A DNA stretch of 64,000 bases from an uncultured Bacteroidales bacterium (GTDB taxonomy: Bacteria > Bacteroidota > Bacteroidia > Bacteroidales > Paludibacteraceae), in contig ONND01000007.1 in NCBI GenBank assembly GCA_900319105.1, positions 55,569 to 119,568 of the forward strand, given 5' to 3'. Shown piece after piece: positions 27,729-59,246 of the stretch. How positions within the stretch are numbered: position 1 is the stretch's first letter; every line of letters starts with the position of its first letter. Made by a program: the position numbers and the translations under genes. Under the pieces are notes generated by a model. It did not search any database and had not been told where the DNA came from. It saw only the letters and a list, made by a program, of their open reading frames with translations.

Positions 27729-27779
27729 CACCATACACTCTACACCGTACACCGTACACCTTTATCTATGTTTATGTTC
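27729..27779 (+). repeat. Heptamer tract (CACCGTA type) followed by the TTTATCTATG module
   Basis: CACCATA, CACTCTA, CACCGTA and CACCGTA, then CACC and TTTATCTATGTTTATGTTC. A near-identical junction (TACACCGTACAC next to TTTATCTATG) occurs at 31055..31086. Confidence 0.75.
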
Positions 27780-29479: not shown

Positions 29480-29503
29480 ACGTTAAACTTTCAACTTTCA
29501 ACG
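29457..29503 (+). repeat. Heptamer tract (AAACTTT / CAACTTT) at the 3' end of the hipA-like gene
   Basis: Units AAACTTT, AAACGTT, AAACTTT, CAACTTT and CAACGGA. It covers the stop codon of the gene; same unit family as 5030..5050. Confidence 0.75.
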
Positions 29504-34505: not shown

Positions 34506-34534
34506 CGGTAACAGGTGAGGCTACGTATTCGGCT

Positions 34535-45653: not shown

Positions 45654-46469
45654 ATGACGATATTATGTATCGAAACAAGTACATCGGTTTGTTCGGCCGC
45701 CATCTGTAAGGATGGCGTGCCGGCCAAGCAATGTATCCATTACGAAGGTAGCAACCATGCACGGTTGCTGCCTTTGTATATTGATGAGTTACTCCAGTAT
45801 GCCCGCGAGAACGGACTTACTATCGACGCTGTGGCGCTATCCGAAGGACCGGGAAGCTATACCGGACTCCGTATCGGAACCAGTACGGCGAAAGGGCTCT
45901 GCTACGGGTTGAATGTACCCCTTATCCCCATCCCTACGCTGGACGTGCTCTGCGCAGCTGCCAAAAGAAGTCTGTCCTCTGTCAGTCCGCAGGACGGTCT
46001 GTGCTCTGTCAGTCCGCAGGACGGTCTGTGTTCTGTCAGCGAGCAAAGCGAGCGGTCTGTCAGCGCAGCGGTCTTTATCCCCATGATCGACGCCCGTCGC
46101 ATGGAGGTCTATACGGCTATCTTTGATAGCGAGTCGAAAGTCGAAAGTCGAAAGTCGGAAGAAGAACGCGTGCGTGCAGTCGTGGTGGAGAATGAAGAGA
46201 GTCTGTACTCTGTCAGCGAAGCCGGTCTGTCAGCGCAGCGGTCTATATTTTACTTCGGCGACGGCGCAGCCAAATGTCAAGCCGTGCTGACGTCTCCCAA
46301 CTGGCACTACCTGCCGAATATCGTTCCCGAAGCACAATACGTCGGACGATTAGCGGAACAAATCGCCGTACACTGTACGCCGTACACCGTACACCAACTC
46401 GCCTACTACGAGCCTTTCTATCTGAAAGAATTTATTGCAGCACCCAGTCATGTCAAAGGTTTAAATTAG
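45654..46469 (+). CDS. tsaB: tRNA threonylcarbamoyladenosine biosynthesis protein TsaB
   Basis: Partner of TsaD in making t6A37 in tRNAs that read ANN codons. 271 aa; the ASKHA-type fold starts MTILCIETSTSVCSAAICKD, then HARLLPLYIDELLQYARENG and LSEGPGSYTGLRIGTSTAKG (residues about 63-82), the TsaB signature. Four separate low-complexity insertions interrupt the rest: CGGTCTGTCAG-family tracts at 45969..46076 (residues 106-141, with SVSPQDGLC twice) and 46201..46246, and heptamer tracts at 46134..46161 (ESKVESRKSE) and 46366..46393 (TPYTVHQ). They keep the frame and lie after the conserved N-terminal half, in the more variable region. The gene begins 6 bases after the barrel gene. Confidence 0.9.
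   Translation: MTILCIETSTSVCSAAICKDGVPAKQCIHYEGSNHARLLPLYIDELLQYARENGLTIDAVALSEGPGSYTGLRIGTSTAKGLCYGLNVPLIPIPTLDVLCAAAKRSLSSVSPQDGLCSVSPQDGLCSVSEQSERSVSAAVFIPMIDARRMEVYTAIFDSESKVESRKSEEERVRAVVVENEESLYSVSEAGLSAQRSIFYFGDGAAKCQAVLTSPNWHYLPNIVPEAQYVGRLAEQIAVHCTPYTVHQLAYYEPFYLKEFIAAPSHVKGLN
45969..46076 (+). repeat. CGGTCTGTCAG-family cluster inside tsaB
   Basis: Two exact 27-base units (CTCTGTCAGTCCGCAGGACG plus GTCTGTG, coding SVSPQDGLC), then CTGTCAGcgagcaaagcgagCGGT and CTGTCAGcgcagCGGTCT. Each unit holds a short stem-loop (for example GTCC-gca-GGAC). Confidence 0.9.
46134..46161 (+). repeat. Heptamer tract (TCGAAAG x3 + TCGGAAG) inside tsaB
   Basis: Four 7-base units, 28 bases, coding for a Ser/Lys/Glu-rich loop. 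Confidence 0.85.
46201..46246 (+). repeat. CGGTCTGTCAG-family unit inside tsaB (second site)
   Basis: Reads tctgtactCTGTCAGcgaag, CCGGTCTGTCAGcgcagCGG and TCT, the same architecture as 45969..46076. Confidence 0.85.
46366..46393 (+). repeat. Heptamer tract (CCGTACA type) inside tsaB
   Basis: CCGTACA, CTGTACG, CCGTACA, CCGTACA, translated as part of VHCTPYTVHQ. Confidence 0.8.
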
Positions 46470-46553
46470 AAGAAATAGAAGCCTGACCCTGCGTACTGGT
46501 AACGAAGTGGTAACGGGATTGAAGGCTGAATAAGGGCTGAATGAAGGTTAAAG

Positions 46554-49187
46554 ATGCTTAGATTACTCAAACATATACATGTATCGCGGTTAATCATTTT
46601 GGGATTAGCCGTGACCTCACTTTCCTCTTGCTCTACCCAGAAAAACACATGGGCGACTCGTTCGTTCCATCAGACGAAAGTCAAATATAATATTCTCTAT
46701 AACGGGAATATAGCTTACGAAGAAGGATTAAAAGCCATCCGTGATGCCAACAAGGATGACTATTCCCATATATTATCGCTCTATCCGGTTAGTAACCATC
46801 AGGCAGCGCAAGCGGCTACGTCCCAGATGGACAAGACCATAGAGAAATGCCGCAAATGTATCAAGTTACATTCTATCAAAACGAAACCCAAACGTAACCC
46901 CAAGAAAGCCAATGACCCGAAATACAAACTCTGGTTGCAATCGGAGGAGTTCAACGCGAACATGGGCTTGGCGTGGATCCGCTTAGGCGAGGCGGAATTC
47001 CATAAAGGCGATTTCTTGGGGGCTGTCAGTACGTTCAATTATATCATCAATCATTACCAGAACAACCCGGATATGATCGCGCAGAGCCAGTTGTGGATCG
47101 CGCGCGCTTATGCGGAGATGGGATGGCAATACGAGGCGGAAGATATGCTGCAGCGTGTACAGATCGACGCCCTGAGCAAGAAGCACGCACGCCTCTATTC
47201 GGCGGTCAAAGCAGATGTGTTGCTGCACGGACAGAGCTATCACGAGGCGATCCCCTTTATCAAGATCGCTATGCCTCACGAGAAACGCACGGTCTATCGT
47301 CCGCGCTTCGCCTATGTCTTAGGACAGCTGTATGAGAAAGAAGGGAAGCGAGACGATGCTATTCATGCCTTCAAATCGGTGGTACGCATGGCACCGCCGA
47401 CAGAGATGGAGTTCAATGCCCGCATCCGCATGGCGGAGTTGGGAGGCAAAAACTCCCTCCGTAAGTTGCGCACGATGAGCAAGCAGTCGAAATACAAGGA
47501 TAAGTTAGACCAGATCTACGGCGCAATGGGAAATATATACCTCGCTCAAGGCGATACCGCACACGCCTTGGAGATGTACCGGAAAGCCATTGCGGAAGCA
47601 ACGCAAGCCGGTCCCGCCAAAGCAGCGGTTCTCGTCCGCGCGGGTGATATCTATTATGAGCAACGCGCGTACGCACAAGCGCAACCCTATTATCGCGAGG
47701 CGGTTACCATCCTGACCGCGGAGAACCCCGAATACGCACGTATCCAGAAGCGCTCGGAGGTGCTGGATGAACTGATCGTAGCGTACGAGCAAGCCCAGTT
47801 ACAGGACTCGCTCCAACGGCTGGGACATATGACCGAAGAAGAGCAGCGCGCGATAGTGGATCGAATCATCGCTGATCTCATCGCGGCGGAGAAAGCGGAT
47901 TCCACCAAGCAGGCGCAACAAGAGCGCGATGCCACGATAGCGGGACCTTCGCTGCGAAGCGTCGATACGCGGAACATGCTCGGCGGCGGTAATGCGCAGA
48001 AAGGCGAATGGTATTTCTACAACCCGCAACTGATCCAGCAAGGCAAGCAGGACTGGATCCGCAAATGGGGTAACCGCAAACTGGAGGATAACTGGAGAAG
48101 ACAGAACAAGCAGGTGATTGTCAATGACGAAATGGCCGCTGCACCCAATGATGAAAACGGTGAATTATCCCCGGATAGCCTGACTCTCGACTCGACGGCG
48201 GTACAGCCGCAGAAGATAGAGACCGATGACCATAAGCCCGAGTATTACCTGCAGCAGATACCCCGTACGCCGCAGGACTATGCCGTGAGCGACAGTCTAT
48301 GGCGTGAGGCGATGGTAGCGCTCTATTATATCTATCGCGATAAAGTGGAGGATGAAACCTTGGCGGAAGAGACCCTACGTGCCCTATCGGAGCGTTTCCC
48401 CGGACATCCTTGTCTGGCGGATATCTTAGAGGACTTGCGGTTGCGTGCGCTGCGCAATGACACCGCGTATATAGCCGGCATGCTGAAGATGTTGGCAGAG
48501 CAGGATTCGCTTTATGCCGCTACGTATGTCGCTTATACGAAAGGTCAGTATGCGACGGTGAAAACCAATAAGCAGTATGCCCAGAAGGAGTTCCCGCAAA
48601 GCAAACTCATCCCGCGCTTCCTCTTCCTCAACGCCGTTGCAGTGGCCCGTACGGAGGGACAGAAAGCCTTCATCGCAGAGTTGCAGGAACTGGTAGCCAA
48701 CTACGGCGAGACGGAGTTAGGCGCGATGGCGAAAGATATGCTGGCGATGATGGGACAAGGAATGGAGAGCAAGAAAGGTGGCGCGACAGGCGACCTGGCG
48801 GAATTGCGCGGACAGACAACCGATGATACAGACCAGACGGACACATCGGATTCTACTCTGGTATGGAGCGAGGACCGCAAACAACCGTCTATTGTACTGC
48901 TGATCCTTCCGACTGCGGACGAAGAGGCACTCAATGAACTGCTCTATGAAGTGGCGTTGTTCAACTTCTCGCAGTTCCTCATCCGTGATTTCGATTTGCA
49001 GAAGATGCCTGTCTTCAAAGAGGGTTGTGCTTTGCGCGTCAGCGGCTTCGCCGACCTCGATGAAGCCGAGTGGTGGGTGGACTTGGTGAAGAAGAACAGC
49101 GACATGCAATTGGTGCTTGCCGGCGTGACGATACAAGCATTGGCAGAGGTCAACCTGCCGCTCGCACAAAAAAAGGATGGCCTCTAA
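46554..49187 (+). CDS. sprE: Type IX secretion lipoprotein SprE/PorW
   Basis: 877 aa. Lipobox after a helix (IILGLAVTSLSSC), then STQKNTWATRSFHQTKVKYN, YILYNGNIAYEEGL-like opening and tetratricopeptide repeats through residues 120-450 (e.g. GDFLGAVSTFNYIINHY, QGDTAHALEMYRKAI). This N-terminal pattern (CSTQKN..., KVKYNILYNGNIAYEEG) is that of SprE/PorW, an outer-membrane-associated lipoprotein needed for T9SS export. Together with GldJ it makes a second T9SS component in this window. The last 17 bases overlap half of a terminator hairpin shared with the tRNA gene on the other strand. Confidence 0.85.
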   Translation: MLRLLKHIHVSRLIILGLAVTSLSSCSTQKNTWATRSFHQTKVKYNILYNGNIAYEEGLKAIRDANKDDYSHILSLYPVSNHQAAQAATSQMDKTIEKCRKCIKLHSIKTKPKRNPKKANDPKYKLWLQSEEFNANMGLAWIRLGEAEFHKGDFLGAVSTFNYIINHYQNNPDMIAQSQLWIARAYAEMGWQYEAEDMLQRVQIDALSKKHARLYSAVKADVLLHGQSYHEAIPFIKIAMPHEKRTVYRPRFAYVLGQLYEKEGKRDDAIHAFKSVVRMAPPTEMEFNARIRMAELGGKNSLRKLRTMSKQSKYKDKLDQIYGAMGNIYLAQGDTAHALEMYRKAIAEATQAGPAKAAVLVRAGDIYYEQRAYAQAQPYYREAVTILTAENPEYARIQKRSEVLDELIVAYEQAQLQDSLQRLGHMTEEEQRAIVDRIIADLIAAEKADSTKQAQQERDATIAGPSLRSVDTRNMLGGGNAQKGEWYFYNPQLIQQGKQDWIRKWGNRKLEDNWRRQNKQVIVNDEMAAAPNDENGELSPDSLTLDSTAVQPQKIETDDHKPEYYLQQIPRTPQDYAVSDSLWREAMVALYYIYRDKVEDETLAEETLRALSERFPGHPCLADILEDLRLRALRNDTAYIAGMLKMLAEQDSLYAATYVAYTKGQYATVKTNKQYAQKEFPQSKLIPRFLFLNAVAVARTEGQKAFIAELQELVANYGETELGAMAKDMLAMMGQGMESKKGGATGDLAELRGQTTDDTDQTDTSDSTLVWSEDRKQPSIVLLILPTADEEALNELLYEVALFNFSQFLIRDFDLQKMPVFKEGCALRVSGFADLDEAEWWVDLVKKNSDMQLVLAGVTIQALAEVNLPLAQKKDGL

Positions 49188-49198
49188 CCATCCTTTTG
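49171..49198. terminator. Bidirectional terminator shared by sprE and tRNA-Pro
   Basis: AAAAGGATGG (49171..49180) and CCATCCTTTT (49188..49197) form a 10-bp stem around CCTCTAA, with U-runs in both directions. The left arm lies inside the last codons of sprE. Confidence 0.75.
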
Positions 49199-49272
49199 TC
49201 GGGAAGACGTGATTCGAACACGCGACCTCCGGTCCCCCAGACCGTTGCGCTACCGGGCTGCGCCACTTCCCG
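49199..49272 (-). tRNA. tRNA-Pro (anticodon GGG)
   Basis: Minus strand from 49272: CGGGAAG acceptor, D-arm with GCGCAGCCCGGTAGCGC, anticodon loop CTGGGGG (anticodon GGG), T-arm GCGTG-TTCGAAT-CACGT, acceptor CTTCCCG and discriminator A; no CCA encoded. The acceptor stem is fully paired. One mismatch is possible at the base of the anticodon stem. It has its own promoter and a terminator on both sides. Confidence 0.92.
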
Positions 49273-49293
49273 CGCTTTTCACGAAAGCGGGTG

Positions 49294-49325
49294 CAAAGTT
49301 ACAGCTTTTTTTTGATATATGCAAA
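49294..49325 (-). promoter_or_regulatory. Promoter for tRNA-Pro
   Basis: Minus strand: TTTG 49325..49322, 20-base spacer with AAAAAAAAGCTG, TAACTTTG 49301..49294. Confidence 0.7.
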
Positions 49326-49329
49326 TAAA

Positions 49330-50712
49330 ATGACAAAAAAATTTTATATTGAGACATACGGATGTCAAATGAATGTCGCGGATAGCGAGGTCGTTGCGGC
49401 TATTATGCAGACCACAGACGCGGAGATGACAGAGCGTTGGGAGGATGCTGATATCATTCTGCTCAACACCTGCTCCATCCGCGATAACGCGGAGCAGAAA
49501 GTTGGTTCCCGCCTCCGCGAACTGAAAAGTCTTTTAGCGAAGCGGTCTGTCAGTGAAACGGTCTGTCAGGCCGCAGGGCCGGTCTGTCAGCGTAAGCGGT
49601 CTATTATAGGCGTCATCGGATGTATGGCGGAGCGAATGGGACAGGAGTTGATCGATGAGTATGGGGTGGATTTCGTAGCCGGTCCGGACGCTTATCTCGA
49701 TATCCCTAATCTGCTGGCGCAATGCGAGGCGGGGCATAAGGCGATGAATGTGGAGTTGAGTACGACGGAGACTTACCGTCAGATCATCCCGGCGCGTATA
49801 GGCCGCTCGATAAGCGGGTTCGTGTCCATCATGCGTGGGTGTAATAATTTCTGCTCCTATTGCGTAGTGCCTTACACGCGCGGTCGCGAGCGAAGTCGTG
49901 ACGTGGAGTCTATCCTTCAGGAGGTGCGTGATCTCCAGGCGAAAGGGTACAAAGAAGTGACCCTACTTGGTCAGAACGTCAATTCCTATCGCTACCAGCC
50001 AACAGCCAACAGCCAACAGCCAACAGCCGTTATTGATTTCGCCGACCTGCTGGAGATCGTAGCGGACGCGGTGCCGGATATGCGTATCCGCTTCACGACG
50101 AGCCATCCCAAAGATATGTCTGATAAGACCCTGGAGGCCATTAGCCGGCATAAGAACCTCTGTAAGTTCATTCATCTGGCGGTACAATCGGGTTCGAATC
50201 ACGTCCTCAAACTCATGAACCGCAAATATACGCGGGAATGGTATCTGGATCGTATAGCCGCCATCCGGCGTATCTTACCTACCGCCGCCATCAGTACGGA
50301 TATCTTCTGCGGGTTCCACGATGAGACGCTGGAGGATCATGCGCAGACGCTGAGTCTCATGCGCGAAGTGGGATTCGACTCCGCATTCATGTTCAAGTAC
50401 TCGGAGCGGCCGGGGACGTATGCGCAGAAACATCTGCCGGATAACATACCGGAGGAAGAGAAGATCCGCCGCCTGAATGAGATCATCGCCCTGCAAAACC
50501 AGTTGTCTTTAGAATCGAACCAACGCGAGATAGGAAAGACCGTGGAAGTGCTTGTGGAGGGCTTCTCCAAACGCAGCCGAGAGGACATGTACGGAAGAAC
50601 AGAACAGTACAAAACGGTAGTCTTTCCGAGAACGGATCAGAAGATAGGCGATCTGGTCCAAGTACAGGTTTTAGAGGCCTCTGCAGCTACGCTGAGAGGG
50701 AAAATAGTGTAA
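49330..50712 (+). CDS. miaB: tRNA-2-methylthio-N6-dimethylallyladenosine synthase (MiaB)
   Basis: 460 aa from ATG 49330 (MTKKFYIETYGCQMNVADSE); an upstream in-frame start overlaps the tRNA promoter and is rejected. N-terminal UPF0004 domain with three Cys (GCQMN, LNTCSIRD, IGVIGCMAE) for the second 4Fe-4S cluster; radical SAM motif CNNFCSYCVVPY near residue 175; TRAM domain at the end. It adds the methylthio group to A37 of tRNAs reading UNN codons. A CGGTCTGTCAG tract (49536..49607, about residues 69-93) splits the first domain, and a heptamer tract (49995..50028) adds QPTANSQQPTA near residue 225; both are in frame. Confidence 0.94.
   Translation: MTKKFYIETYGCQMNVADSEVVAAIMQTTDAEMTERWEDADIILLNTCSIRDNAEQKVGSRLRELKSLLAKRSVSETVCQAAGPVCQRKRSIIGVIGCMAERMGQELIDEYGVDFVAGPDAYLDIPNLLAQCEAGHKAMNVELSTTETYRQIIPARIGRSISGFVSIMRGCNNFCSYCVVPYTRGRERSRDVESILQEVRDLQAKGYKEVTLLGQNVNSYRYQPTANSQQPTAVIDFADLLEIVADAVPDMRIRFTTSHPKDMSDKTLEAISRHKNLCKFIHLAVQSGSNHVLKLMNRKYTREWYLDRIAAIRRILPTAAISTDIFCGFHDETLEDHAQTLSLMREVGFDSAFMFKYSERPGTYAQKHLPDNIPEEEKIRRLNEIIALQNQLSLESNQREIGKTVEVLVEGFSKRSREDMYGRTEQYKTVVFPRTDQKIGDLVQVQVLEASAATLRGKIV
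49536..49607 (+). repeat. CGGTCTGTCAG-family cluster inside miaB
   Basis: CGGTCTGTCAG three times with variable 5- to 10-base centres (one is the stem-loop GCC-gcag-GGC), closed by CGGTCTAT. Encodes a Ser/Val/Cys-rich loop. Confidence 0.9.
49995..50028 (+). repeat. Heptamer tract (AGCCAAC x4) inside miaB
   Basis: Four exact AGCCAAC units plus AGCC, coding for alternating Gln, Pro, Thr, Ala, Asn and Ser. Confidence 0.9.
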
Positions 50713-50757
50713 AAAATGACGCATTTTGAAGAAAAAACACATTTTTTTGCATAAAAA

Positions 50758-50789
50758 TTTGGTCATATCAAATAAAAGCAGTACTTTTG
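50758..50789 (+). promoter_or_regulatory. Promoter for the leader RNA before greA
   Basis: TTTG 50758..50761, 20-base spacer, TACTTTTG 50782..50789. Confidence 0.7.
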
Positions 50790-50794
50790 TATCG

Positions 50795-50869
50795 AAAACA
50801 AATAAATTTTCATAGTTAAGGTTTAGGTTTAATGGCAATAGGAGGCTGTGAAGTTTCCTATTGTTTTTT
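50795..50869 (+). ncRNA. Short leader RNA ending in a terminator (attenuator candidate)
   Basis: Between the promoter and a 36-aa gene lies about 75 bases ending in a strong intrinsic terminator: CAATAGGA (50836..50843) pairs with TCCTATTG (50856..50863), then TTTTTT. The middle carries CATAGTTAAGGTTTAGGTTT, similar in layout to the RNA at 53882..53954. Either a small RNA, or a leader controlling readthrough into the 36-aa gene and greA. It recalls Rfam Bacteroidales-1-type RNAs, but a covariance search is needed. Confidence 0.55.
50836..50869 (+). terminator. Intrinsic terminator of the leader RNA
   Basis: Perfect 8-bp stem, 12-base loop, six U. The next gene starts 14 bases later, so some readthrough must occur if that gene is expressed from this promoter. 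Confidence 0.8.
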
Positions 50870-50883
50870 AGACAAAAGATAGA

Positions 50884-50994
50884 ATGGAAGATAAAAATTG
50901 TTTTTTAGACTCCCTCCCCATCCCGGATTTGACGGATGCAGAGGAGGTACGCAAGGCCATCCTTGCGAACGAAATATTGAATAAAAAATACTAA
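50884..50994 (+). CDS. Small acidic protein (36 aa) upstream of greA
   Basis: MEDKNCFLDSLPIPDLTDAE then EVRKAILANEILNKKY. The ending xxRKAIxxxEILNxKY resembles a short conserved tail I associate with small Bacteroidales proteins, but I cannot verify this here. It lies 14 bases after the terminator and 7 bases before greA, so it is probably co-translated with greA. Function unknown. Confidence 0.5.
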   Translation: MEDKNCFLDSLPIPDLTDAEEVRKAILANEILNKKY

Positions 50995-51001
50995 ATATAT
51001 T

Positions 51002-51472
51002 ATGGCAGTAACGTACATGACCGAAGAAGGTCTGCAAAAATTAAAAGAGGAGCTCCAGCACTTGGAGACTGTAGAGCGCCCGCGTGTGATTGCCGCTATA
51101 GCGGAAGCCCGTGAGAAAGGCGACTTGAGTGAGAACGCGGAATATGATGCCGCCAAAGAAGAGCAGGGTGCTTTAGAGAGCAAGATTGCTCAGATCAAAA
51201 CCCGTTTGATGGAGGCGCGTGTGCTCAACACCGATGATGTCAAGACGGATGAGGTTCAGATCCTGACCAAAGTGCGCGTACGCGTACGTAATACAGGTAA
51301 GGAGAAGACCTACCAGTTGGTAACCGAAGGTGAGGCTAATTCGCTGGAGGGTAAGATCTCCGTCACCACGCCGATCGCAAAAGGTCTGCTTGGCAAGAAA
51401 GTAGGCGAAGTAGCCCAAGTTCAAGTTCCCGCCGGATTGATGGAGTACGAGATCCTGGAAATCTCTCTCTAA
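51002..51472 (+). CDS. greA: Transcription elongation factor GreA
   Basis: 156 aa; rescues backtracked RNA polymerase by stimulating its RNA cleavage. N-terminal coiled coil (TEEGLQKLKEELQHLETVER and AKEEQGALESKIAQIKTRL) with the acidic tip DLSENAEYDAAKEE containing Asp-Glu near residues 41-45, then the globular FKBP-like domain ending EYEILEISL. The stop codon lies in the first unit of a heptamer tract (AAATGGT) that fills the gap to the HIT gene. Confidence 0.95.
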   Translation: MAVTYMTEEGLQKLKEELQHLETVERPRVIAAIAEAREKGDLSENAEYDAAKEEQGALESKIAQIKTRLMEARVLNTDDVKTDEVQILTKVRVRVRNTGKEKTYQLVTEGEANSLEGKISVTTPIAKGLLGKKVGEVAQVQVPAGLMEYEILEISL

Positions 51473-51518
51473 ATGGTAAATGGCAAATGGTAAATGGTAA
51501 ATGACCAAATGGTAAATT
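51471..51518 (+). repeat. Heptamer tract (AAATGGT x4+) between greA and the HIT gene
   Basis: AAATGGT, AAATGGC, AAATGGT, AAATGGT, AAATGAC and further related units; includes the last two bases of the greA stop codon. Confidence 0.85.
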
Positions 51519-51521
51519 GCT

Positions 51522-51929
51522 ATGACTCTCTTTACGAAAATTATCAAGGGTGAGATCCCGAGTTATAAGGTAGCGGAGGACGAGAAGAACTATGCGTTCC
51601 TGGATATCAATCCGCTGACGAAGGGCCACACGCTGGTTATTCCGAAGTTGTCGGAGCCGGAGAGTGACTACTTGTTTGATCTGGAGGACGAGCAGTACGC
51701 GAGTCTGATGCGTTTTGCCAAACGGGTAGCGAAAGGTGTGAAGGCGGCTACGGGTTGTAAACGCGTAGGCGTAGCGGTATTAGGCATGGAGGTGAACCAT
51801 GTTCATATTCATCTTATTCCGCTCAATTCGGAGAAAGATATGCTCTTCAGCAATCCGAAGCTCAGCCTGCCGGCAGAAGAGATGGCGATGATCGCCAACT
51901 CTATCGCCGAGGCCGTGGAGAAAAACTAA
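51522..51929 (+). CDS. HIT family nucleotide hydrolase/transferase
   Basis: 135 aa. Histidine triad in GMEVNHVHIHLIPLNSEKDM (His at about residues 90, 92, 94), preceded by the conserved IIKGEIPSYKVAED and HTLVIPKLSEPE of Hint-type proteins. Such enzymes hydrolyse phosphoramidates or dinucleoside polyphosphates; the substrate is not deducible. It follows greA after the heptamer tract and converges with psuG 4 bases later. Confidence 0.9.
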   Translation: MTLFTKIIKGEIPSYKVAEDEKNYAFLDINPLTKGHTLVIPKLSEPESDYLFDLEDEQYASLMRFAKRVAKGVKAATGCKRVGVAVLGMEVNHVHIHLIPLNSEKDMLFSNPKLSLPAEEMAMIANSIAEAVEKN

Positions 51930-51933
51930 ACGG

Positions 51934-52845
51934 TTAGTTCGCCATAGCGACCGCAGTGCGGGCCGCCAGACGGGCATTATTGAGTACCAGTTGGATATTC
52001 GCAGCCAGGCTGTCACCGCCCGTCAAATCTTTCACTTTGGCTAACAGGAAAGGTGTGCATTGTTTACCATGCACGCCTTTTTTGTCGGCTTCTGCGAGCG
52101 CTTGTTCGATAGCGGCATTGATGACATCCGCCGGCATGGAGAACTCCTCCGGAATAGGATTGGTCACTAACATACCGCCCTTGAGCCCACATTCGATCTT
52201 GGCTTTGAACGCTGCGGCTAATTCTTCGGGTGTGTCAATACGATAGTCCACGCCGAAACCGCTGTGACGGGTATAGAAAGCCGGTAACTCGTCTGTACCA
52301 AAACCGATGACGGGTACTCCTTTGGTCTCAAGATATTCGAGCGTCAGACCGAGGTCGAGGATGGACTTGGCTCCCGCGCAGATGACCATGACGGGCGTTT
52401 GCGCCAGTTCTTCGAGGTCGGCAGAGATATCGAAAGTCTGCTGTGCGCCGCGGTGTACGCCGCCGATACCGCCGGTTGCGAAGATCTTAATGCCTGCCAT
52501 GGCGGCGATGATCATGGTGGTGGTAACCGTCGTAGCTCCGTCTTCCTGACGGGCGATGAGAACCGGAAGATCCCGACGCGAAGCCTTGGTGACCGCCTGA
52601 CCTTTCTTACCCAGGTATTCGATTTCCTCCGGAGTGCATCCGGCTTTCAGTTTGCCGCCGATGATAGCGATGGTGGCGGGAACGGCGCCGTTGTCCCGGA
52701 TCGTTTGTTCAACGCGCAGAGCCGTCTCTACGTTCTGCGGATAGGGCATACCGTGACTGATGATGGTGGATTCCAATGCCACGACGGGTTTGCCTGCTTT
52801 CAGTGCCTCTTGCACTTCCGGCGATATACTTAGATATTTATTCAT
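51934..52845 (-). CDS. psuG: Pseudouridine-5'-phosphate glycosidase
   Basis: 303 aa; reversibly splits pseudouridine 5'-phosphate into uracil and ribose 5-phosphate. Family features: [19 protein letters not shown] (residues about 19-37), Lys-containing [13 protein letters not shown] near 75, [20 protein letters not shown] near 118, [15 protein letters not shown] and TPEELAAAF. The gene is immediately downstream of a PfkB-type kinase on the same strand, which would supply its substrate, as in the PsuK-PsuG pathway of E. coli. A TAATTTA heptamer tract separates the two genes. Confidence 0.95.
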
Positions 52846-52848
52846 TCT

Positions 52849-52869
52849 TAATTTATAATTTATAATTTA
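52849..52869 (-). repeat. Heptamer tract (TAATTTA x3) between psuK-like and psuG
   Basis: Three exact TAATTTA units at 52849, 52856 and 52863. Confidence 0.85.
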
Positions 52870-53763
52870 CAATAGGATATTAGCAATATCAGGATTAACA
52901 GCTTTGGGGCTCATGAGTGCTGCCCGAGCGGCCATGAGTCCGTATTGGGCTGTTTGCGGGAAGTCGAGCCCTTTCGCGTAAGCATAGACGACTCCGGCGA
53001 GGAAAGCGTCTCCTGCTCCGGTGGTATTGACGATTTCGCCCGGAAGGGCGGGGTAGAGCCATTCTTCTGCGGCATTACGGCAATAGACGCCTTCTGCGCC
53101 GAGGGTGATATAGACATGTGCCGCTCCCTTGTCAAGAAGCGCCTGTGCCGCCTCGGCGTAAGTCTGGGCCTGGGTGATCGCCAGAGCCTCCTTGAGGTTG
53201 AGCTTGAGCGTGTGGAGGTACGGCAGTTTGGCTTTGGTCAGCGCATTGATGACGCGGAAAGCCTTGGTGGAACTGACTCCGTCGATGAAGAGCGGGGCGG
53301 TGACGTTCTCCATAAGCCAGCGGATGGCGTCCTCGGTGATATTCGTGTCTGCCACCACATAATCGGAGGTGTTGAGTTCACCGCTCCGTTTATCGAGCCA
53401 TTCGGGCGTAATGGAACGAATAGCCTCCGTGTCCGCCACTGCCGCAATCATCTCGCCGCCGTGATTATTGATGCAGAGATAAACGCCGGAGCGAAGCGAT
53501 GTGATTCGCTCGGATAGATGGACGTCAATACCTTGCTGAATACAATGGTCGTGCAGCAGACCGCCGAAGAGATCTCCGCCGAAGATCGTGAGCAATTGGG
53601 TCTTGGCTCCGAGCAACGATAAGTTATGCGCGATATTACGCGCTACACCGCCATAGCTGATGTCTATATGCCCGGGATTAGAGTCCGCCGCGATGAAGGC
53701 GTCGTTCAGCGCAGCCAGCAGATCGACATTCGCGCCACCGATAACAGAAACAAATGTGTCCAT
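52867..53763 (-). CDS. PfkB family sugar kinase, probable pseudouridine kinase
   Basis: 298 aa from ATG 53763 (MDTFVSVIGGANVDLLAALN); a longer frame starting at 53853 crosses the promoter and is not credible. PfkB signatures: SYGGVARNIAHNLSLLGAKT (residues about 40-60), LFIDGVSSTKAFRV and the C-terminal NTTGAGDAFLAGVVYAYAKG with the catalytic Asp. Adjacency to psuG on the same transcript makes pseudouridine the likely substrate; a general ribokinase-type role is the alternative. The promoter lies 22 bases upstream of the ATG. Confidence 0.85.
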   Translation of the reverse strand: MDTFVSVIGGANVDLLAALNDAFIAADSNPGHIDISYGGVARNIAHNLSLLGAKTQLLTIFGGDLFGGLLHDHCIQQGIDVHLSERITSLRSGVYLCINNHGGEMIAAVADTEAIRSITPEWLDKRSGELNTSDYVVADTNITEDAIRWLMENVTAPLFIDGVSSTKAFRVINALTKAKLPYLHTLKLNLKEALAITQAQTYAEAAQALLDKGAAHVYITLGAEGVYCRNAAEEWLYPALPGEIVNTTGAGDAFLAGVVYAYAKGLDFPQTAQYGLMAARAALMSPKAVNPDIANILL

Positions 53764-53784
53764 GGTACATCTCTTTTTCGGGTA

Positions 53785-53815
53785 CAAAGGTACTGCTTTT
53801 TTTTGAATTGTGCAA
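53785..53815 (-). promoter_or_regulatory. Promoter for the pseudouridine kinase and psuG
   Basis: Minus strand: TTG 53815..53813, 20-base spacer with AAAAAAAAGCAG, TACCTTTG 53792..53785. Confidence 0.78.
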
Positions 53816-53881
53816 GAAAAAAACGCAGTTTTGAGTAGAAAGTCGAAAGACAATAGACAAAAGACTACGAGTTAGAACTAT

Positions 53882-53954
53882 AAAAAACAAAGAAGGATGT
53901 CTCCCGACATCCCAATCTTTTTACTTAACCTTAAATCTAATACCATGAAAAACA
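53882..53954 (-). ncRNA. Short RNA with terminator (Bacteroidales-1-like candidate)
   Basis: Starts about 6 bases after TACCTTTG and ends at a strong terminator: GGATGTC-GGGA-GACATCC (53912..53895) followed by TTCTTTGTTTTTT. The 5' part reads TTTTTCATGGTATTAGATTT and AAGGTTAAGTAAAAAGATTG, close to the layout of the leader at 50795. No adequate start codon or conserved peptide (a 13-codon frame MKNTVQRYC.. on the other strand is a shadow). Likely a stand-alone small RNA. Confidence 0.55.
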
Positions 53955-53959
53955 CGGTG

Positions 53960-53991
53960 CAAAGGTACTGCTTTTTGGCGAACTGACCAAA
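53960..53991 (-). promoter_or_regulatory. Promoter for the short RNA
   Basis: Minus strand: TTTG 53991..53988, 20-base spacer, TACCTTTG 53967..53960. Confidence 0.72.
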
Positions 53992-54075
53992 TATTTGAGC
54001 GAAAAAATGTTAAAAAACATATTTTTGTCAATCCCATTTGGCAAAAGAGGGGTAGTGGCGCGAATATACGATATT

Positions 54076-54756
54076 TTAGCCCTCATCTAATAAATCGGGT
54101 CTGCGCTCCCTGGTATGCTCGAGGGATTGCTCGTATTGCCATTCTTCGATCTTGGCTTGGTGCCCCGAGAGGAGAATCTCCGGTACTTTCCATCCCTTAT
54201 AGTCTGCTGGGCGGGTATAGACACCGGCTTCGAGCAGGCCGTCTTGGAAGGAATCGTTAAGCGCCGACTCCACGTCGCCGAGTGCGCCCGGCAGGAGACG
54301 GACGATCGCGTCGGTCATCATAGCCGCCGGCATCTCTCCGCCGGTCAGTACAAAATCGCCGATGCTGTACTCCTTTGTGATAAAATGATCGCGCACGCGT
54401 TGGTCCACCCCCTTATAGTGGCCGCAAAGGATGATGATGTTCTCTTTGAGCGAGAGGGTGTTGGCGGCTTTTTGGTCAAAGCGTTCGCCGTCTGGGGCAG
54501 TGAAGATGATCTCGTCGTAATGGCGTTCAGCGGTCAGATGGGAGATGCAGCGGTCGATAGGCTCGATCTGCAGCACCATGCCGGCGCCGAAACCAAAGGC
54601 ATAGTCATCTACCTTACGATGTTTGTCAAGTGTCCAGTCGCGGAGATTATGCACGTAGATTTCGCAAAGGCCTTTATCCTTCGCGCGTTGAATGATAGAA
54701 TGGTTGAGAGGCGATTCTAACAATTCCGGGCAACAAGTGATAATATCGATTCGCAT
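54076..54756 (-). CDS. trmD: tRNA (guanine37-N1)-methyltransferase TrmD
   Basis: 226 aa from [20 protein letters not shown]; the nine codons upstream lack the family start. SPOUT knot with [20 protein letters not shown] and [20 protein letters not shown] (residues about 108-150); a short C-terminal helical domain ([16 protein letters not shown]). It methylates G37 in tRNAs with G36, preventing +1 frameshifts. On the same strand as yidD, rnpA and hemD but 73 bases downstream of yidD, so it may have a separate promoter or belong to that run. Confidence 0.94.
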
Positions 54757-54828
54757 TTCTATCCGTTTAATGTTTTTATGCAATAAAAACCATTTTACTA
54801 TTTAACCGATTAACGTGATGCAGTTACT

Positions 54829-55077
54829 CTAAGGCACCGGGTCGTAGCCGGAGCCGCCCCAGGGATGGCAACGGCAGATACGCTTGATACCCATCCAACC
54901 GCCTTTGAAAATACCATATTTGAGCACCGCTTCTACCATGTACTGGCTGCAGGTAGGTGTATAGCGGCACGACGGAGGCGTCAGCGGGGAGATGAAGAAC
55001 CGGTAGAAATAGACAGGCAAAAGAAAAATATTGCGCAGCACTATTTTTATTCTATGTACCATTGGTTCATTTCCCAT
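54829..55077 (-). CDS. yidD: Membrane protein insertion efficiency factor YidD
   Basis: 82 aa. Core [20 protein letters not shown] (residues about 23-43), then [20 protein letters not shown] and [17 protein letters not shown] at the end, the full YidD signature with its Cys. It helps the YidC/Sec route insert membrane proteins; cytoplasmic face of the inner membrane. Eight bases after rnpA on the same strand, the conserved rnpA-yidD order. yidC itself is not in the window. Confidence 0.94.
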
Positions 55078-55084
55078 GTATCAT

Positions 55085-55486
55085 TTATTTAGTCATTTGG
55101 TCATTGATCTTCCGGAGTGCTTTTATCACCGCTTTTTCGATGACGGAGTAGGGTTGAGGCTCCTTGTCCATATAATTGAAGGCGATTAATAGACCGCCCT
55201 GCGGGCTGACAGAAGACAGACCGCTATCGCTGATAGACCGCTTTGCTGACAGAATGTCTTGATGGAGACGGTACGCTTCCCTCATGAGCCGGCGGAGATG
55301 ATTGCGCTGCACGGCATGCTTGAAGAGCGATTTGGGCGCCCAGACTAATACTTGGCTGTTAGGACTATTCGCTGGCATATACGTGACGCGCAGCGGCCAC
55401 GACGTAAATCGCTTGCCTTGTTTGTATAACTGCGCTATGCGTTCTTGTCCGCATAGTTTATTCTGTTTCGGAAACGTATTCGCCAT
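55085..55486 (-). CDS. rnpA: Ribonuclease P protein component
   Basis: 133 aa; with the RNA subunit it removes 5' leaders of tRNA precursors. MANTFPKQNKLCGQERIAQL opens it, followed by FTSWPLRVTYMP and the RNR-type motif AVQRNHLRRLMREAYRLHQ near residues 60-78. A CGGTCTGTCAG-family tract (55191..55253) then adds about 20 residues (SAKRSISDSGLSSVSPQG) before the last helix, an unusual interruption in so small a protein. The ATG at 55486 is chosen because it gives the family start; upstream codons are in a heptamer-rich spacer. Confidence 0.9.
   Translation of the reverse strand: MANTFPKQNKLCGQERIAQLYKQGKRFTSWPLRVTYMPANSPNSQVLVWAPKSLFKHAVQRNHLRRLMREAYRLHQDILSAKRSISDSGLSSVSPQGGLLIAFNYMDKEPQPYSVIEKAVIKALRKINDQMTK
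55191..55253 (-). repeat. CGGTCTGTCAG-family cluster inside rnpA
   Basis: Minus strand: CTGTCAGcaaagCGGTCT, ATCAGcgatagCGGTCTGTC and CTGTCAGcccgcagggCGGT. Same consensus and the same hairpin-type centre as in miaB and tsaB. Confidence 0.9.
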
Positions 55487-55489
55487 CCC

Positions 55490-55523
55490 TTCGTACATCG
55501 TACATCGCCCCTTTGTACATTTA
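55490..55523 (-). repeat. Heptamer tract (GTACATC type) between hemD and rnpA
   Basis: TTCGTAC, ATCGTAC, ATCGCCC, CTTTGTA and CATTTAC in sequence; includes the end of hemD. Confidence 0.7.
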
Positions 55524-56264
55524 CTGGTTTTTATCCAGATAATCAGCGATAGCCATAGGCAGGGATGCAAACGCCTTACCCGGTCCTGCCTCTATATCCA
55601 CGCGGTAGCCCGCCTCATCGAGCGCACGGATCGTGCCTTCGCCAAAAGCAGCGATGAGGGTCCTGCCTTGTTTCCAATTCGGGAAATTCTCATTGAGCGA
55701 GGTCACACCGGCAGGCGTGAAGAGAGCGATCATGTCATATTCGAACGGCATGTCCTGCGGCCACGGCGTTGTGACCGTGCGGTACATGATAGCCGGAGTC
55801 ACTTCGACGCCGTTCTCGGCGAACATGTTGATCTGGTCCTTGGTATGGATATTGGAGAGTACCATGAGGTAGCGCTCGTTGGGGCGGCGGTGCATCGCCG
55901 GCAGGAGATCTTCGAACTTATTACCGGTCTCCGGGAAGAAGACCTTGCGCTTACGATAGTTGATGAATTTCTGCAGATACAGTCCTACTTGCTCGGAATT
56001 GCAGTAGTAGTGCATGGAGTCGGGTACATTGAGCCGCATCTCTTCGCACAAACGGAAATAATGCTCTGCGCCTAATTTGGAATTCAGAATGACCGCCGTA
56101 TAGTCCATCGGGTTGATATGTTGCTGGCGGAACTCGCGCGCGGAGAGTCCTTCGATATGAATGAACTGATGAAAATCACACTGCACATCGAATTGCTCCT
56201 CCAGTCGGGAGTAGGGATTATGCGCCGTCTCAGGGCGCGGCTGCGAGAATAGAATTTTTATCAT
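55521..56264 (-). CDS. hemD: Uroporphyrinogen-III synthase
   Basis: 247 aa from MIKILFSQPRPETAHNPYSR; the 78 codons further upstream lie inside the DUF4271 gene in another frame. HemD folds have weak signatures: LNSKLGAEHYFRLCEEMRLN (about 80-100), DMIALFTPAGVTSLNENFPN (about 178-198) and AFGEGTIRALDEAGYRVDIE (about 208-227). It cyclises hydroxymethylbilane in tetrapyrrole synthesis. Four-base overlap with the DUF4271 gene, a conserved neighbour in Bacteroidetes. Confidence 0.88.
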   Translation of the reverse strand: MIKILFSQPRPETAHNPYSRLEEQFDVQCDFHQFIHIEGLSAREFRQQHINPMDYTAVILNSKLGAEHYFRLCEEMRLNVPDSMHYYCNSEQVGLYLQKFINYRKRKVFFPETGNKFEDLLPAMHRRPNERYLMVLSNIHTKDQINMFAENGVEVTPAIMYRTVTTPWPQDMPFEYDMIALFTPAGVTSLNENFPNWKQGRTLIAAFGEGTIRALDEAGYRVDIEAGPGKAFASLPMAIADYLDKNQ

Positions 56265-56920
56265 ATACAAACTATCATTTTCGAAGATAAATAGAGTAAT
56301 GCGCCGAACGGTACCACCTCCAGCGTTGCTATATACAGCAGCACATACAAGATGGCACTGAGCGAGCGGATATAGATACCCGCCATCCGGTACAGGCAAA
56401 CGAGCACAAAAAGTGCGGCGATGATGCCTAATGCCCACAGGCTGAGTTCGGGACGGCCGATACGCATGAAAACCAGCAGGCACGGGTAAAGCACACAAGC
56501 TGTGATCGTAGCGAGGTCGCCGTATTGCTCATACACCGGCATGAAGCGGCGCGAGAGGGAGAAAGTATAGTCCAACAAGATGTTACAGAGCATCTTGAGC
56601 AGAATAAAAGCTAAAACCAATCCGCAGACAGCAGCAAAAGAGGCGAAACGGAAAGAGCCTCCTGCGTACTCACAGAGGCAGATAGCCATTGCGAGCGTGC
56701 CGATGCGGAAGATGGAGATAAGGAACTGGGCGGGCGTGTTGGTCGGTGCATCCTTGTAGGTGCGCTCTGTGCGCGCCAAGATAGAGACATGCGACTGGGA
56801 GATGATACCGGGTTGCATCACTTCGCTGAAGACCGCGCAGAGAAACAACAACAGCATCGTCCATCCGCACCAAGCTGCCGACATCGGGGAGATAATATGT
56901 GCTATTTGAGATAGGAGCAT
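56261..56920 (-). CDS. DUF4271 domain-containing membrane protein
   Basis: 219 aa, six or so hydrophobic helices (e.g. AAWCGWTMLLLFLCAVFSEV, FASFAAVCGLVLAFILLKML, ALGIIAALFVLVCLYRMAGI). The family is confined to Bacteroidetes and usually sits next to hemD; role unknown. It overlaps hemD by 4 bases and starts 7 bases after the U32 gene, so U32, DUF4271 and hemD are one operon. Confidence 0.85.
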   Translation of the reverse strand: MLLSQIAHIISPMSAAWCGWTMLLLFLCAVFSEVMQPGIISQSHVSILARTERTYKDAPTNTPAQFLISIFRIGTLAMAICLCEYAGGSFRFASFAAVCGLVLAFILLKMLCNILLDYTFSLSRRFMPVYEQYGDLATITACVLYPCLLVFMRIGRPELSLWALGIIAALFVLVCLYRMAGIYIRSLSAILYVLLYIATLEVVPFGALLYLSSKMIVCI

Positions 56921-56927
56921 TCAGATG

Positions 56928-58211
56928 TCAGGATTCAGATTCCCAGATATAGAGTTTATCGCCGCGACGGATGAGACGGTCGGTCTTGAGCGAGAAGAAC
57001 TCGCCTTTGTTCACGCACGAAGCCGGATTGCCGTGGGTATCCCGCAGGCCTTCCGCCTTGCACTCATAGACGCCGGTGGTCTCGCCGGTGATGAGGAGTT
57101 GTTGTCCTTCGCGGATAGCATCCACCGCCTCCACGACGAACTCAGCGACACTCAGGTTCTTGAAGAAATTAGTGCATTTGGCAGCGTATATCTTGGTCCG
57201 CGTTGCTTTATTGCCGTACGAGCGGGTCCATTCACCTAACCGCTGACCTTGATAATACCCATCCCAGAAACCGCGGTTGAAGACCCGGCTGAGCCGTTCG
57301 TTCCAGTCGGCTATCTTTGCCTCTATGCCGCATGGTTGTTCGCTTCCGGATGCGATCCGGTCGTCGGCGTACTCGCCTTTCTGCCAGGCTTCGACCGCCT
57401 CTTTGTAGCAACGGACGACCGTGTCCACGTATTCCGCTCCGCGTGCGCGGCCTTCGATCTTGAGCACCCGCACACCGGCATCGAGCATCTTGTTGAGGAA
57501 ATGAATGGTCTTGAGGTCCTTGGGAGACATGATATATTGGTTGTCGATGTCGAGTTCGAGGTCCGAGGACTTGTCCTTGACCGTATAGCCGCGTCGGCAC
57601 ACCTGAACACATGCTCCTCTATTGGCGCTGAGGCCGTAGTTATTGAGGCTGAGGTAGCATTTGCCGCTGACCGCCATGCACAAAGCGCCATGGCAGAACA
57701 TCTCAATACGGATCGGCTTGCCGCTACGACCGCATATATGTTGCTCCTGGATGTCGCGATAGATGGACGCTACCTGGTCCATGTTCAGCTCACGCGCCAG
57801 GACTACCACATCGGCAAACTGGGCATAGAACTTGAGCGCTTCGGTGTTGGCGATGTTGAGTTGGGTGGAGAGATGCACCTCCTGACCGATGGCGTTGGCA
57901 TACTGCATGACAGCGATATCGGAAGCGATGACAGCGTCCACGCCTACGGCATGCGCCTTATCGACGATCTCGCGCATCAGCGGCAGGTCCTCCGGATACA
58001 TGACCGTATTGACCGTGAGGTAGGTCTTGACGCCTGCTTTGCGGCAAGTGGCGACGATGGTCGCCATGTCGTCGGTCGTAAAATTGACCGAACTGCGGGC
58101 ACGCATATTGAGATGTTCGATCCCGAAATAGACGCTGGTCGCACCGGCTTGGATAGCCGCTGCCAAACTCTCCCAGCACCCTACGGGAGCCATGATCTCG
58201 ATATTTGCCAT
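56928..58211 (-). CDS. U32 family peptidase
   Basis: 427 aa from MANIEIMAPVGCWESLAAAI; five extra codons at the front are encoded by a heptamer-like stretch. U32 signature: EMFCHGALCMAVSGKCYLSL and NRGACVQVCRRGYTV, with four conserved Cys (residues about 165-205), and FLNKMLDAGVRVLKIEGRAR. Related enzymes (TrhP, YegQ, UbiU/V) are radical-type or prephenate-using RNA/quinone enzymes rather than proteases; tRNA hydroxylation is the best-supported bacterial role for this subgroup, but I cannot tell which branch this is. The 3' end overlaps nothing; the DUF4271 gene starts 8 bases downstream. Confidence 0.85.
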   Translation of the reverse strand: MANIEIMAPVGCWESLAAAIQAGATSVYFGIEHLNMRARSSVNFTTDDMATIVATCRKAGVKTYLTVNTVMYPEDLPLMREIVDKAHAVGVDAVIASDIAVMQYANAIGQEVHLSTQLNIANTEALKFYAQFADVVVLARELNMDQVASIYRDIQEQHICGRSGKPIRIEMFCHGALCMAVSGKCYLSLNNYGLSANRGACVQVCRRGYTVKDKSSDLELDIDNQYIMSPKDLKTIHFLNKMLDAGVRVLKIEGRARGAEYVDTVVRCYKEAVEAWQKGEYADDRIASGSEQPCGIEAKIADWNERLSRVFNRGFWDGYYQGQRLGEWTRSYGNKATRTKIYAAKCTNFFKNLSVAEFVVEAVDAIREGQQLLITGETTGVYECKAEGLRDTHGNPASCVNKGEFFSLKTDRLIRRGDKLYIWESES

Positions 58212-58232
58212 TGGGTCATTTACCATGTATCT

Positions 58233-59246
58233 TTATTCTGTCAGCGCAGCGGTCTTTATTAGGTACTCGGCTATTTGTACGGCATTCAATGCGGCACCTT
58301 TGCGGATCTGGTCGCTTACGCACCAGAAACTAAGGCCGTTCTCGTCGGTCAGGTCCTTGCGGATGCGGCCGATGAAGACTTCATCTTTGCCGCTGAGGAA
58401 CAACGGCATGGGGTAGATCTTCTTGTCCGGCTCGTCCATGAGGACACAACCCTGTGCATTGGCGAAGGCTGTTTTGGCCTCCTCTACGCTGACGGGGCGC
58501 TCGGTCTCTACCCATACACTCTCGCTATGGGCGCGCAGCGAAGGGACGCGAACGCAGGTGGCGCTCACTTTGACATCCGAGTGCATGATCTTACGCGTCT
58601 CGTTGTACATCTTCATCTCCTCTTTGGTGTACCCGTTGTCAGTGAAGACATCGATATGCGGGATGACGTTGAAAGCCAACTGATAGGCGAACTTATCTAC
58701 GGTAGCCGGTTCGCCGTTCAGCACCTGGCGGTACTGGGTCTCCAGTTCCTTCATCGCCTGTGCTCCGGCCCCTGAGGCCGCCTGATAGGTAGAGACATGC
58801 ACACGGCGGATGTGGCTCAGGCGCTCTATCGCCTGCAGCGCCACCACCATCTGTATTGTTGTGCAATTCGGATTAGCGATGATGTTACGCGGACGCACCA
58901 AAGCATCCGAAGCATTCACTTCGGGAACCACTAATGGCACATCTTCGTCCATCCGAAAAGCCGATGAATTATCAATCATGATTGCGCCGAAGCGCGTGAT
59001 ATCCTCCGCATACGCACGTGACACGCCTGCGCCCGCGGAGACAAAAGCAATATCGACGCCCTTGAAAGCGTCGTCGTGTTGCAGCAGTTGAACGGTATAT
59101 TCTTTGTTGCGGAAGAAATATGTCTTGCCGGCACTTCGTTCCGAACCGAATAGTCGTAGTTCGGAGACCGGGAATTGCCGCTGTTCAAGAACAGCAAGCA
59201 ACTCCTGTCCGACGGCGCCTGATGCGCCAACGATAGCAATGACCAT
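58233..59246 (-). CDS. asd: Aspartate-semialdehyde dehydrogenase
   Basis: 337 aa. [20 protein letters not shown] (NADP-binding), active-site Cys in [18 protein letters not shown] (about residues 125-142) and the His near [20 protein letters not shown]. It makes L-aspartate 4-semialdehyde for lysine/DAP, threonine and methionine. The last residues (LIKTAALTE) and the stop codon are encoded by a reversed CGGTCTGTCAG-family unit (58235..58256), so the natural C-terminus has been replaced by repeat sequence. The winged-helix gene lies 2 bases upstream. Confidence 0.95.
58235..58256 (+). repeat. CGGTCTGTCAG-family unit at the end of asd
   Basis: Plus strand reads TCTGTCAGcgcagCGGTCTT, opposite in orientation to the asd gene. 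The same 18 bases occur in tsaB. Confidence 0.85.

Follow-up and report, generated by a model that had tools for sequence, protein, structure and literature searches.

What is the short repeat that lies, with reading frames kept open, inside several conserved genes of an uncultured Paludibacteraceae bacterium (Bacteroidales), and what is being copied when it spreads? The repeat was examined in a stretch of 64,000 nucleotides (nt) of GenBank assembly GCA_900319105.1 (contig ONND01000007.1, forward-strand positions 55,569 to 119,568), here called the window, in the source genome (G000, a 2.26 Mb draft) and in more distant genomes. An earlier reading of the letters alone, here the sequence-only reading, had noticed the consensus CTGTCAG-(5 to 13 bases)-CGGTCT within tsaB, miaB and rnpA and at the end of asd. 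That reading missed that the CTGTCAG form is one version of a wider family and that the core of the unit is mostly a DNA mini-hairpin with a GNA loop. The repeat is probably a selfish and very small dispersed mini-hairpin of the SDR/REP kind, copied at the level of DNA and tolerated in protein loops.

Occurrence of the repeat in the window and the source genome

Pattern searches were run on both strands. The pattern CTGTCAGN{5,13}CGGTCT gave 12 exact matches in the window and none in 100 dinucleotide shuffles, and every copy was found where the sequence-only reading had placed it. When the pattern was widened slightly, to CTGTCAGN{3,20}CGGTCT, there were 129 matches in the source genome (73 on the forward strand and 56 on the reverse) and 0 for a control pattern read backwards, and the repeat is therefore not limited to the window. 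The gene context was analysed for 48 clusters (101 units) in the window and in fetched stretches of the source genome, taken from among the matches listed of these 129.

Structure of the unit and its mini-hairpin

The minimal unit reads TCT-NN-CA-(mini-hairpin)-GG-TCT, which is 16 nt from TCT to TCT when the hairpin is the seven-base GCGNAGC. Aligned units from the source genome read T-CTGTCA-(hairpin)-GGTCT-NT, the T at position -1 being present in 48/48 clusters and the T at the second base past GGTCT in 33/48. Units occur singly, in tandem or as inverted pairs, within genes and between them, and tandem units either share a TCT, giving a 16-nt period, or are set apart by an extra 7-nt spacer made of TCT and four bases. 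A further centre, similar to CAGGTCAACCTG and not of the GNA type, was seen in the unit frame in tsaB of the relative G002 (locus L127).

The sequence-only reading had remarked that the variable centres often form small stem-loops. These are real, and they are more regular than that reader could see. Since many loci had been fetched with a pattern that fixes GNA, the wider set of 819 units (second pairs complementary in 422/438 and 58/61, GNA loops in 376/438) is inflated, and the figures used here come from a recount of 247 units at loci that were not chosen by a GNA-containing pattern. In the seven-nt cores, G-C-loop-G-C, the second pair was complementary in 75 of 85 (CG in 61 and TA in 13), compared with a mean of 49.8 and a maximum of 59 in shuffles. 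All 28 of the eleven-nt cores had a complementary second pair (TA 17, CG 8, GC 3; shuffle mean 13.0, maximum 19). This shows that the stem is kept by compensatory pairs.

Most loops are of the GNA or GNNA form. GNA loops were found in 59/85 seven-nt, 19/28 nine-nt and 26/28 eleven-nt cores, and eight-nt cores had a GNNA loop in 18 of 21, only five of these 18 being GNRA. Fifteen-nt cores placed GA opposite GA in 14/24, a count lowered by the recount from 25/47; such an arrangement is compatible with tandem sheared G.A pairs. The source genome taken alone gave complementary second pairs in 51/57 seven-nt and 22/22 eleven-nt cores, GNA loops in 39/57 and 21/22 of the same, and GNNA loops in 11/13. 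In about 460 kb of that genome GCGNAGC occurred 414 times, 23 of them in full unit context, and other loops on the same stem were in unit context as follows: GCCNAGC 0/188, GCTNAGC 1/158, GCANAGC 11/328, GCGNCGC 0/250, GCGNGGC 0/201, GCGNTGC 0/357 and GCANCGC 0/357. According to PMC4686876, DNA mini-hairpins with a GNA or GNNA loop and at least two G-C pairs are extraordinarily stable (78 C for GCGAAGC) and markedly resistant to nucleases. The genomic loop preference agrees with this DNA mini-hairpin rule, and the GNRA preference of RNA is not the rule here. Because the loop preference is that published for DNA, the selected form would be placed in single-stranded DNA.

Location in genes, reading frames and host proteins

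Clusters lay in open reading frames (ORFs) of at least 120 codons in 45 of 48 cases (94%), compared with 1867 of 2000 random 50-nt windows of the source genome (93%). Coding enrichment is not supported, and in this genome the repeat merely does not avoid genes. Clusters were also in ORFs at 81/102 Bacteroidales loci and 5/9 in far genomes, proportions for which no background was computed. Of 38 ORFs with units that were scanned, 35 had a Pfam match. Four of the 45 clusters in ORFs were set aside because they are probably, or may be, outside genes (L053:7072, L054, L066 and L068, three of them with no Pfam match), that of L054 because its unit is upstream of the likely start of a cytidylate kinase; the other 41 clusters are in 34 genes. 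Pfam also confirmed TsaB, MiaB, RnpA and Asd in the window, where all copies are in open frames. The proposal that the repeat has spread inside coding sequence and is tolerated by the proteins is supported across the genome, with copies in frame in Pfam-supported genes.

The sequence-only reading had further observed that the three enzymes with internal copies all act on tRNA. No special tie to such enzymes was found, since the 34 genes that hold 41 of the 48 clusters are of many kinds, and the tRNA theme is mainly a coincidence of the window. Hosts include UvrD, Mfd, MutS2 and DnaG, as well as ArgRS, MnmE and an enzyme of the CCA/polyA polymerase type, which act on tRNA.

In 25/41 cases the best stretch of a single Pfam match encloses the cluster completely, so that the domain resumes in the same frame; the other clusters were in linkers, at domain edges or at termini. 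The MiaB insert (112-130) is inside UPF0004 (43-157) and that of dihydrodipicolinate synthase (DapA; 207-223) inside a match of 10-320, and further inserts inside domains were found in NadD, MnmE, ArgRS, Ham1, M16 and M24 peptidases, ABC ATPases, a pseudouridine synthase, GSCFA and others. The gene for DAHP synthase/chorismate mutase has three clusters, two of them inside a domain. Chorismate synthase gave two Pfam stretches, the better of which begins within the insert.

Frame was read for 94 units in 45 clusters, 33 clusters being sense and 12 antisense to the gene (27 and 16 in a relaxed set, which also had 2 intergenic). A unit of 27 bases, or nine codons, does exist as had been noted, but 71 of 89 units measured from TCT to TCT in Pfam-supported clusters have lengths not divisible by three. 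Equal use of the three frames together with disrupted genes had been named as counting against a protein-tolerated repeat. All frames are indeed used, sense units being divided 34/23/19 (n=76) and antisense units 8/5/5, but the genes are undisrupted because the total length keeps the frame. The end of asd, said to be formed by the repeat, does contain a single unit on the antisense strand, but this supplies merely the last seven codons. The segments are most likely translated, because a segment removed from the mRNA would need neither an open nor a kept frame. As every frame is in use, it is not the peptide that is conserved or that spreads.

Predicted structures were examined for two hosts. 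The AlphaFold model of TsaB had a mean predicted local distance difference test score (pLDDT) of 81.5 and a predicted template modelling score (pTM) of 0.81, and its sole segment of at least three residues with a pLDDT below 50, residues 114-131, is in insert A. For MiaB the corresponding values were 76.4 and 0.67; the insert region contains a low segment, 83-85, after a long predicted helix, and other low stretches were at 12-16, 142-176 and 180-186. The MiaB model therefore gives weaker support than that of TsaB.

Versions of the unit and fillers of the same loops in relatives

A sample of 61 genomes of a larger genus was searched for the core CAGCGNAGCGGTC, which was present in 54, with controls at 0 to 2. 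One of these genomes, G024, had 196 cores and just 5 CTGTCAG units; G000, G002 and G007 had 56, 82 and 108 cores and 129, 143 and 161 CTGTCAG units respectively. The two-base spacer between GGTCT and CAG was GT in 98 of 113 hairpin units of G000, a count in which many loci had been fetched by the GT version. Between tandem cores it was TT in G077 (8/12) and G071 (2/2), AA in G001 (3/5) and TA in G026 (2/3), G061 (2/2), G032 (2/3) and G065 (2/5); G080 had three different spacers and G014 gave no match. By these counts the prevailing spacer dinucleotide varies from genome to genome, and versions mix.

The loop of MiaB between RELK and GVIGC was compared in 29 orthologues, two apparent hairpins (L102 and L113) being treated as chance matches and not counted as units. 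Hairpin units filled it in 7, arrays of 7-bp repeats (heptamers) in 10 and neither in 12, and by eye most of the MiaB arrays carry the spacer that is common in their own genome. The hairpin state requires six changes on the best tree for MiaB, and no fewer than two when well-supported branches alone are counted. TsaB has three variable loops and is otherwise strongly conserved among relatives, in which loop A holds heptamers, fewer units or only a short loop and loop B holds other versions or no unit. When G022 was compared with G000, a heptamer was found in place of the hairpin units at the MiaB site and TsaB loop A was 51 bases shorter.

Named contigs with the tandem core, among the matches listed, came mostly from Paludibacteraceae or unclassified Bacteroidales metagenome-assembled genomes (MAGs) of rumen and gut. 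Those from beyond the Bacteroidales, again among the matches listed, were from Flavobacterium, a Flavobacteriales MAG, Saprospiraceae, Lentisphaera marina and a Nanoarchaeota MAG that could be misbinned. Whole-genome counts gave 13 cores in L. marina, 40, 52 and 24 in three Flavobacterium, 29 in the Flavobacteriales, 43 and 36 in Saprospiraceae and 4 in the Nanoarchaeota MAG, with controls of 0 or 1. The core is also present in the strain-titled records of Flavobacterium sp. CYK-55 and Lentisphaera marina IMCC 11369.

Comparison with known repeats

By its description the unit would seem to work most like the SDR repeats of Nostoc, and like intragenic REPs and RPEs. SDRs are reportedly dispersed hairpin repeats of 21-27 nt with compensatory changes, often found in heptamer arrays and thought to be mobile. 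A dispersed hairpin repeat of about 20 nt with compensatory changes is found here too, as is the association with heptamers, which are alternative fillers of the same loops; embedding in arrays is seen here only as the 7-nt spacers. The preference for GNA and GNNA loops, the in-frame copies in conserved genes and the versions across distant groups set the present unit apart; its host is also a different one, and its sequence is presumably different too.

REPs and REPINs are small palindromic repeats at high copy number, in inverted pairs and in part intragenic (PMC3733652, PMC3116915 and PMC6006769). Most REPs lie between genes, and they have a GTAG or CGTC tag (PMC3733652). The present unit has a shorter hairpin, and its flanks in aligned units are TCTNNCA and GGTCT, with no GTAG or CGTC; its clusters in G000 lie in ORFs as random positions do. 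Inverted pairs were seen in G018 and G000, whereas in G000 most clusters consist of one unit or of direct repeats. In G018, three loci (L273, L274 and L275, at about 6.5-6.9 kb) have REPIN-like intergenic inverted pairs of units flanking a shared segment similar to CCGAATTACACCATGCGGATGGTAAATCGG, some of them right past stop codons.

The palindromic repeats RPE-1, -4 and -6 of Rickettsia lie in frame inside working genes (PMC3733652), and the 25 of 41 clusters found inside one Pfam match are a likewise in-frame insertion into conserved proteins. This likeness is one of description, and the present unit differs in being 16-27 nt long and in expanding as arrays. MITEs, at 70-300 bp with the terminal inverted repeats of insertion sequences, are unlike units of 16-27 nt on which no such ends were seen. 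Heptamer repeats of TAACTGA are described in Beggiatoaceae, Cyanobacteria and a few Bacteroidetes in PMC4679880; the 7-bp arrays here share loops with the unit, but they have no hairpin and their sequence varies by site. Synthetic mini-hairpins such as d(GCGAAGC) follow the same stem-loop rule (PMC4686876) and are known as in vitro chemistry. A dispersed natural repeat built on a GNA or GNNA mini-hairpin was not found in the open-licence papers searched, nor was a description of the present unit. Fragments of 12 bases of the unit in PMC10349097 and PMC3050690 are PCR primers and not the repeat.

How the unit may spread

In the explanation that we favour and consider probable, that of a selfish mini-hairpin repeat, what is copied would be DNA and the selected feature would be a folded single DNA strand. 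New copies might be pasted into new sites, or copies homogenised, by a route that uses an enzyme or recombination, and units in tandem would probably be gained and lost by slippage. The proteins would merely tolerate extra residues in loops and linkers, frame-breaking copies being lost by selection. A more far-reaching version can be put forward only tentatively. It would make the repeat a mobile DNA element of 13-16 nt, among the smallest known, whose sole functional part is an ultra-stable mini-hairpin of single-stranded DNA with a GNA loop; it would be copied through a DNA intermediate, with a core conserved across phyla and a drifting two-base spacer, and it would inhabit protein loops encoded by essential genes.

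Several observations weigh against the explanation by selfish DNA-level copying. Neither a mobilising enzyme nor an insertion in progress was found. The aligned relatives G002, G022, G061 and G026 are about 70-80% alike in DNA and, because they are so diverged, they gave neither a clean empty and filled pair nor an exact boundary. The loop rule is a preference and not absolute, 26 of the 85 seven-nt cores having other loops, of which AAA is the commonest. When four typical units were folded with ViennaRNA using DNA parameters the results were not unusual (z 0.89, -1.78, -0.16 and 1.72), nor were folding energies unusual in RNA mode, so the case for the hairpin is made by covariation and loop preference. 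The DNA parameters of ViennaRNA are not known to contain a GNA bonus. Versions are mixed within genomes, as in G024 where tandem-core spacers were AA 31, TT 14, GA 7, CA 5, AT 1 and GT 1 (n=59). Duplication of a TCT target in multiples of three was considered and is not supported, the span of the clusters modulo 3 being 0, 1 and 2 in 17, 14 and 10 of 41. No lagging-strand bias was seen (23 versus 22 against GC skew, which is weak here), and there was no contig-wise clustering by strand in G000 and G007 (P 0.32 and 0.78; 41 merged places each, among the matches listed of 129 and 161).

An account with no dedicated enzyme overlaps the selfish-repeat explanation, which leaves the copying route open. 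Here hairpin-protected fragments or nascent strands would re-anneal by TCT microhomology at replication, and both units and heptamers would multiply by slippage and template switching. The alternation of units and 7-bp arrays at the same loops, the 7-nt spacers within arrays, array lengths that vary between sibling species and the nuclease resistance of GNA hairpins (stated in PMC4686876) would all fit. The occurrence of one 13-nt core at tens of copies across genomes of different phyla is not readily explained by slippage or template switching, and we regard this account as somewhat doubtful. Mobilisation as a REP family by the RAYT-like (Y1 HUH) transposases of the genus is less likely again. 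RAYT-like genes match in 42 of the 61 genomes, genomes with these genes have more copies of the core (median 19 versus 3, P 2.3e-4; P 0.044 and 0.012 within two MiaB identity groups) and intergenic inverted pairs of units resemble REPINs. For presence of RAYT and copy number, the poorly resolved MiaB tree gives two independent pairs on starred branches, which carry no weight either way. At the RAYT-like loci themselves, CAG-N-CGGTCT was within 1.2 kb in only 3/26, with true hairpin units in two of these (L071 and L293), and 0/14 Y1 loci in far genomes had a GNA- or GNNA-loop unit within about 1.5 kb. Among the loci read, no RAYT gene was seen with a cognate array at its flanks. The unit lacks the GTAG or CGTC tag, and among the genes scanned or read by eye several RAYT-like ones show other hairpins in or beside the gene. 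Five of seven far genomes match PF01797; no match was obtained for two Flavobacterium MAGs that hold 40 and 24 copies.

The readings at the level of RNA and of protein fare worse. An RNA element, whether it regulates as a hairpin, terminates transcription or is spliced out or passed over by ribosomes, would suit the excess of sense copies in genes (33/45 clusters, 27/43 in the relaxed set) and the closeness of some intergenic inverted pairs to stop codons. It is nevertheless highly improbable given the antisense clusters (12/45 and 16/43), the open and kept frames that a skipped or removed segment would not require, the paucity of GNRA among the GNNA loops and an Rfam scan in which no family fell on the units of the window. 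That the peptide itself is selected, for its use as a loop or linker, is scarcely credible. The inserts are indeed in loops, linkers and domain edges, but three sense frames and the antisense strand yield unrelated peptides and relatives fill the same loop with unrelated sequences; the frame use has already largely refuted this reading.

Were the DNA hairpin itself what replicates, the repeat would be a very small selfish element. To our knowledge this would be the first natural role of such a kind for GNA and GNNA mini-hairpins, which have been known from chemistry since 1989. The repeats also show how insertion-tolerant loops of conserved enzymes are filled, and filled anew, in one species after another, which gives a direct view of the origin of new protein segments in sequence not selected as protein. 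The proposal is testable in culture, since strain-titled records carry the core.

The RAYT-like proteins of the genus are of about 330-440 aa (L071, L072, L079, L080 and L084), and some of their genes contain in-frame hairpins of the form CCGAAT-loop-ATTCGG giving peptides like SPNxIRDN. In several of these genes distinct hairpins adjoin the gene. Bacteroidetes tnpAREP genes of subclass 2.4 are described in PMC6006769 as having REPs in frame within their own gene, and the in-gene hairpins of some of the genus genes match this pattern.

Features of the window

The repeat units, the heptamer arrays that occupy the same kind of loop and the host genes are collected in Table 1.

Table 1. Host genes, mini-hairpin units and heptamer arrays, with positions in the window
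Feature	Position	Strand	Details and support
tsaB (t6A37 pathway), with three repeat-filled loops	45654..46469	+	ORF; Pfam PF00814, E 3.2e-19; AlphaFold model matches solved YeaZ/TsaB structures, best E 3.5e-16
TsaB loop A array, 4 mini-hairpin units (SVSPQDGLCSVSPQDGLCSVSEQSERSVSAA)	45979..46074	+	units 45979-46000, 46006-46027, 46033-46058, 46057-46074
Heptamer (AGTCGAA)n array in TsaB, same kind of loop filler	46132..46161	+	loop variable in relatives
TsaB loop B array, 2 units	46210..46244	+	units 46210-46228, 46227-46244
Heptamer (CCGTACA)n array in TsaB loop C	46366..46395	+	loop variable in relatives
miaB (ms2i6A37 methylthiotransferase), ATG at 49330 taken as start	49330..50712	+	Pfam UPF0004, Radical_SAM, TRAM
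Degenerate first unit in miaB (TCTTTTAGCGAAGCGG...), common to several relatives	49530..49546	+	read from sequence
Array of 3 units inside the UPF0004 domain of MiaB	49547..49602	+	units 49547-49564, 49563-49585, 49584-49602
Heptamer (CAGCCAA)n array in MiaB, missing from relative G022	49996..50028	+	
rnpA (RNase P protein), start codon uncertain	55085..55570	-	ORF; PF00825
Units in rnpA: 2 exact (55191-55212, 55235-55252) with variant unit ATCAGCGATAGCGGTCT between	55191..55252	-	in frame near RnpA C-terminus
Single unit antisense to asd, encoding the last seven residues of Asd, KTAALTE	58238..58255	+	
asd (aspartate-semialdehyde dehydrogenase)	58233..59246	-	ORF; Pfam

Tandem arrays of 7 bp and of varied sequence are also found elsewhere in the window, including 5025-5050, 17237-17270, 27727-27760, 29459-29502 and 51470-51517, and several of them are in frame in genes. 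The Rfam scan matched the FopS small RNA family of Bacteroidetes (RF04319, 72.9 bits) at 53881-53955 on the minus strand. Long tandem repeats of 204, 93 and 147 bp at 34017-34619 and 42309-43511 are perhaps repeated domains of surface proteins.

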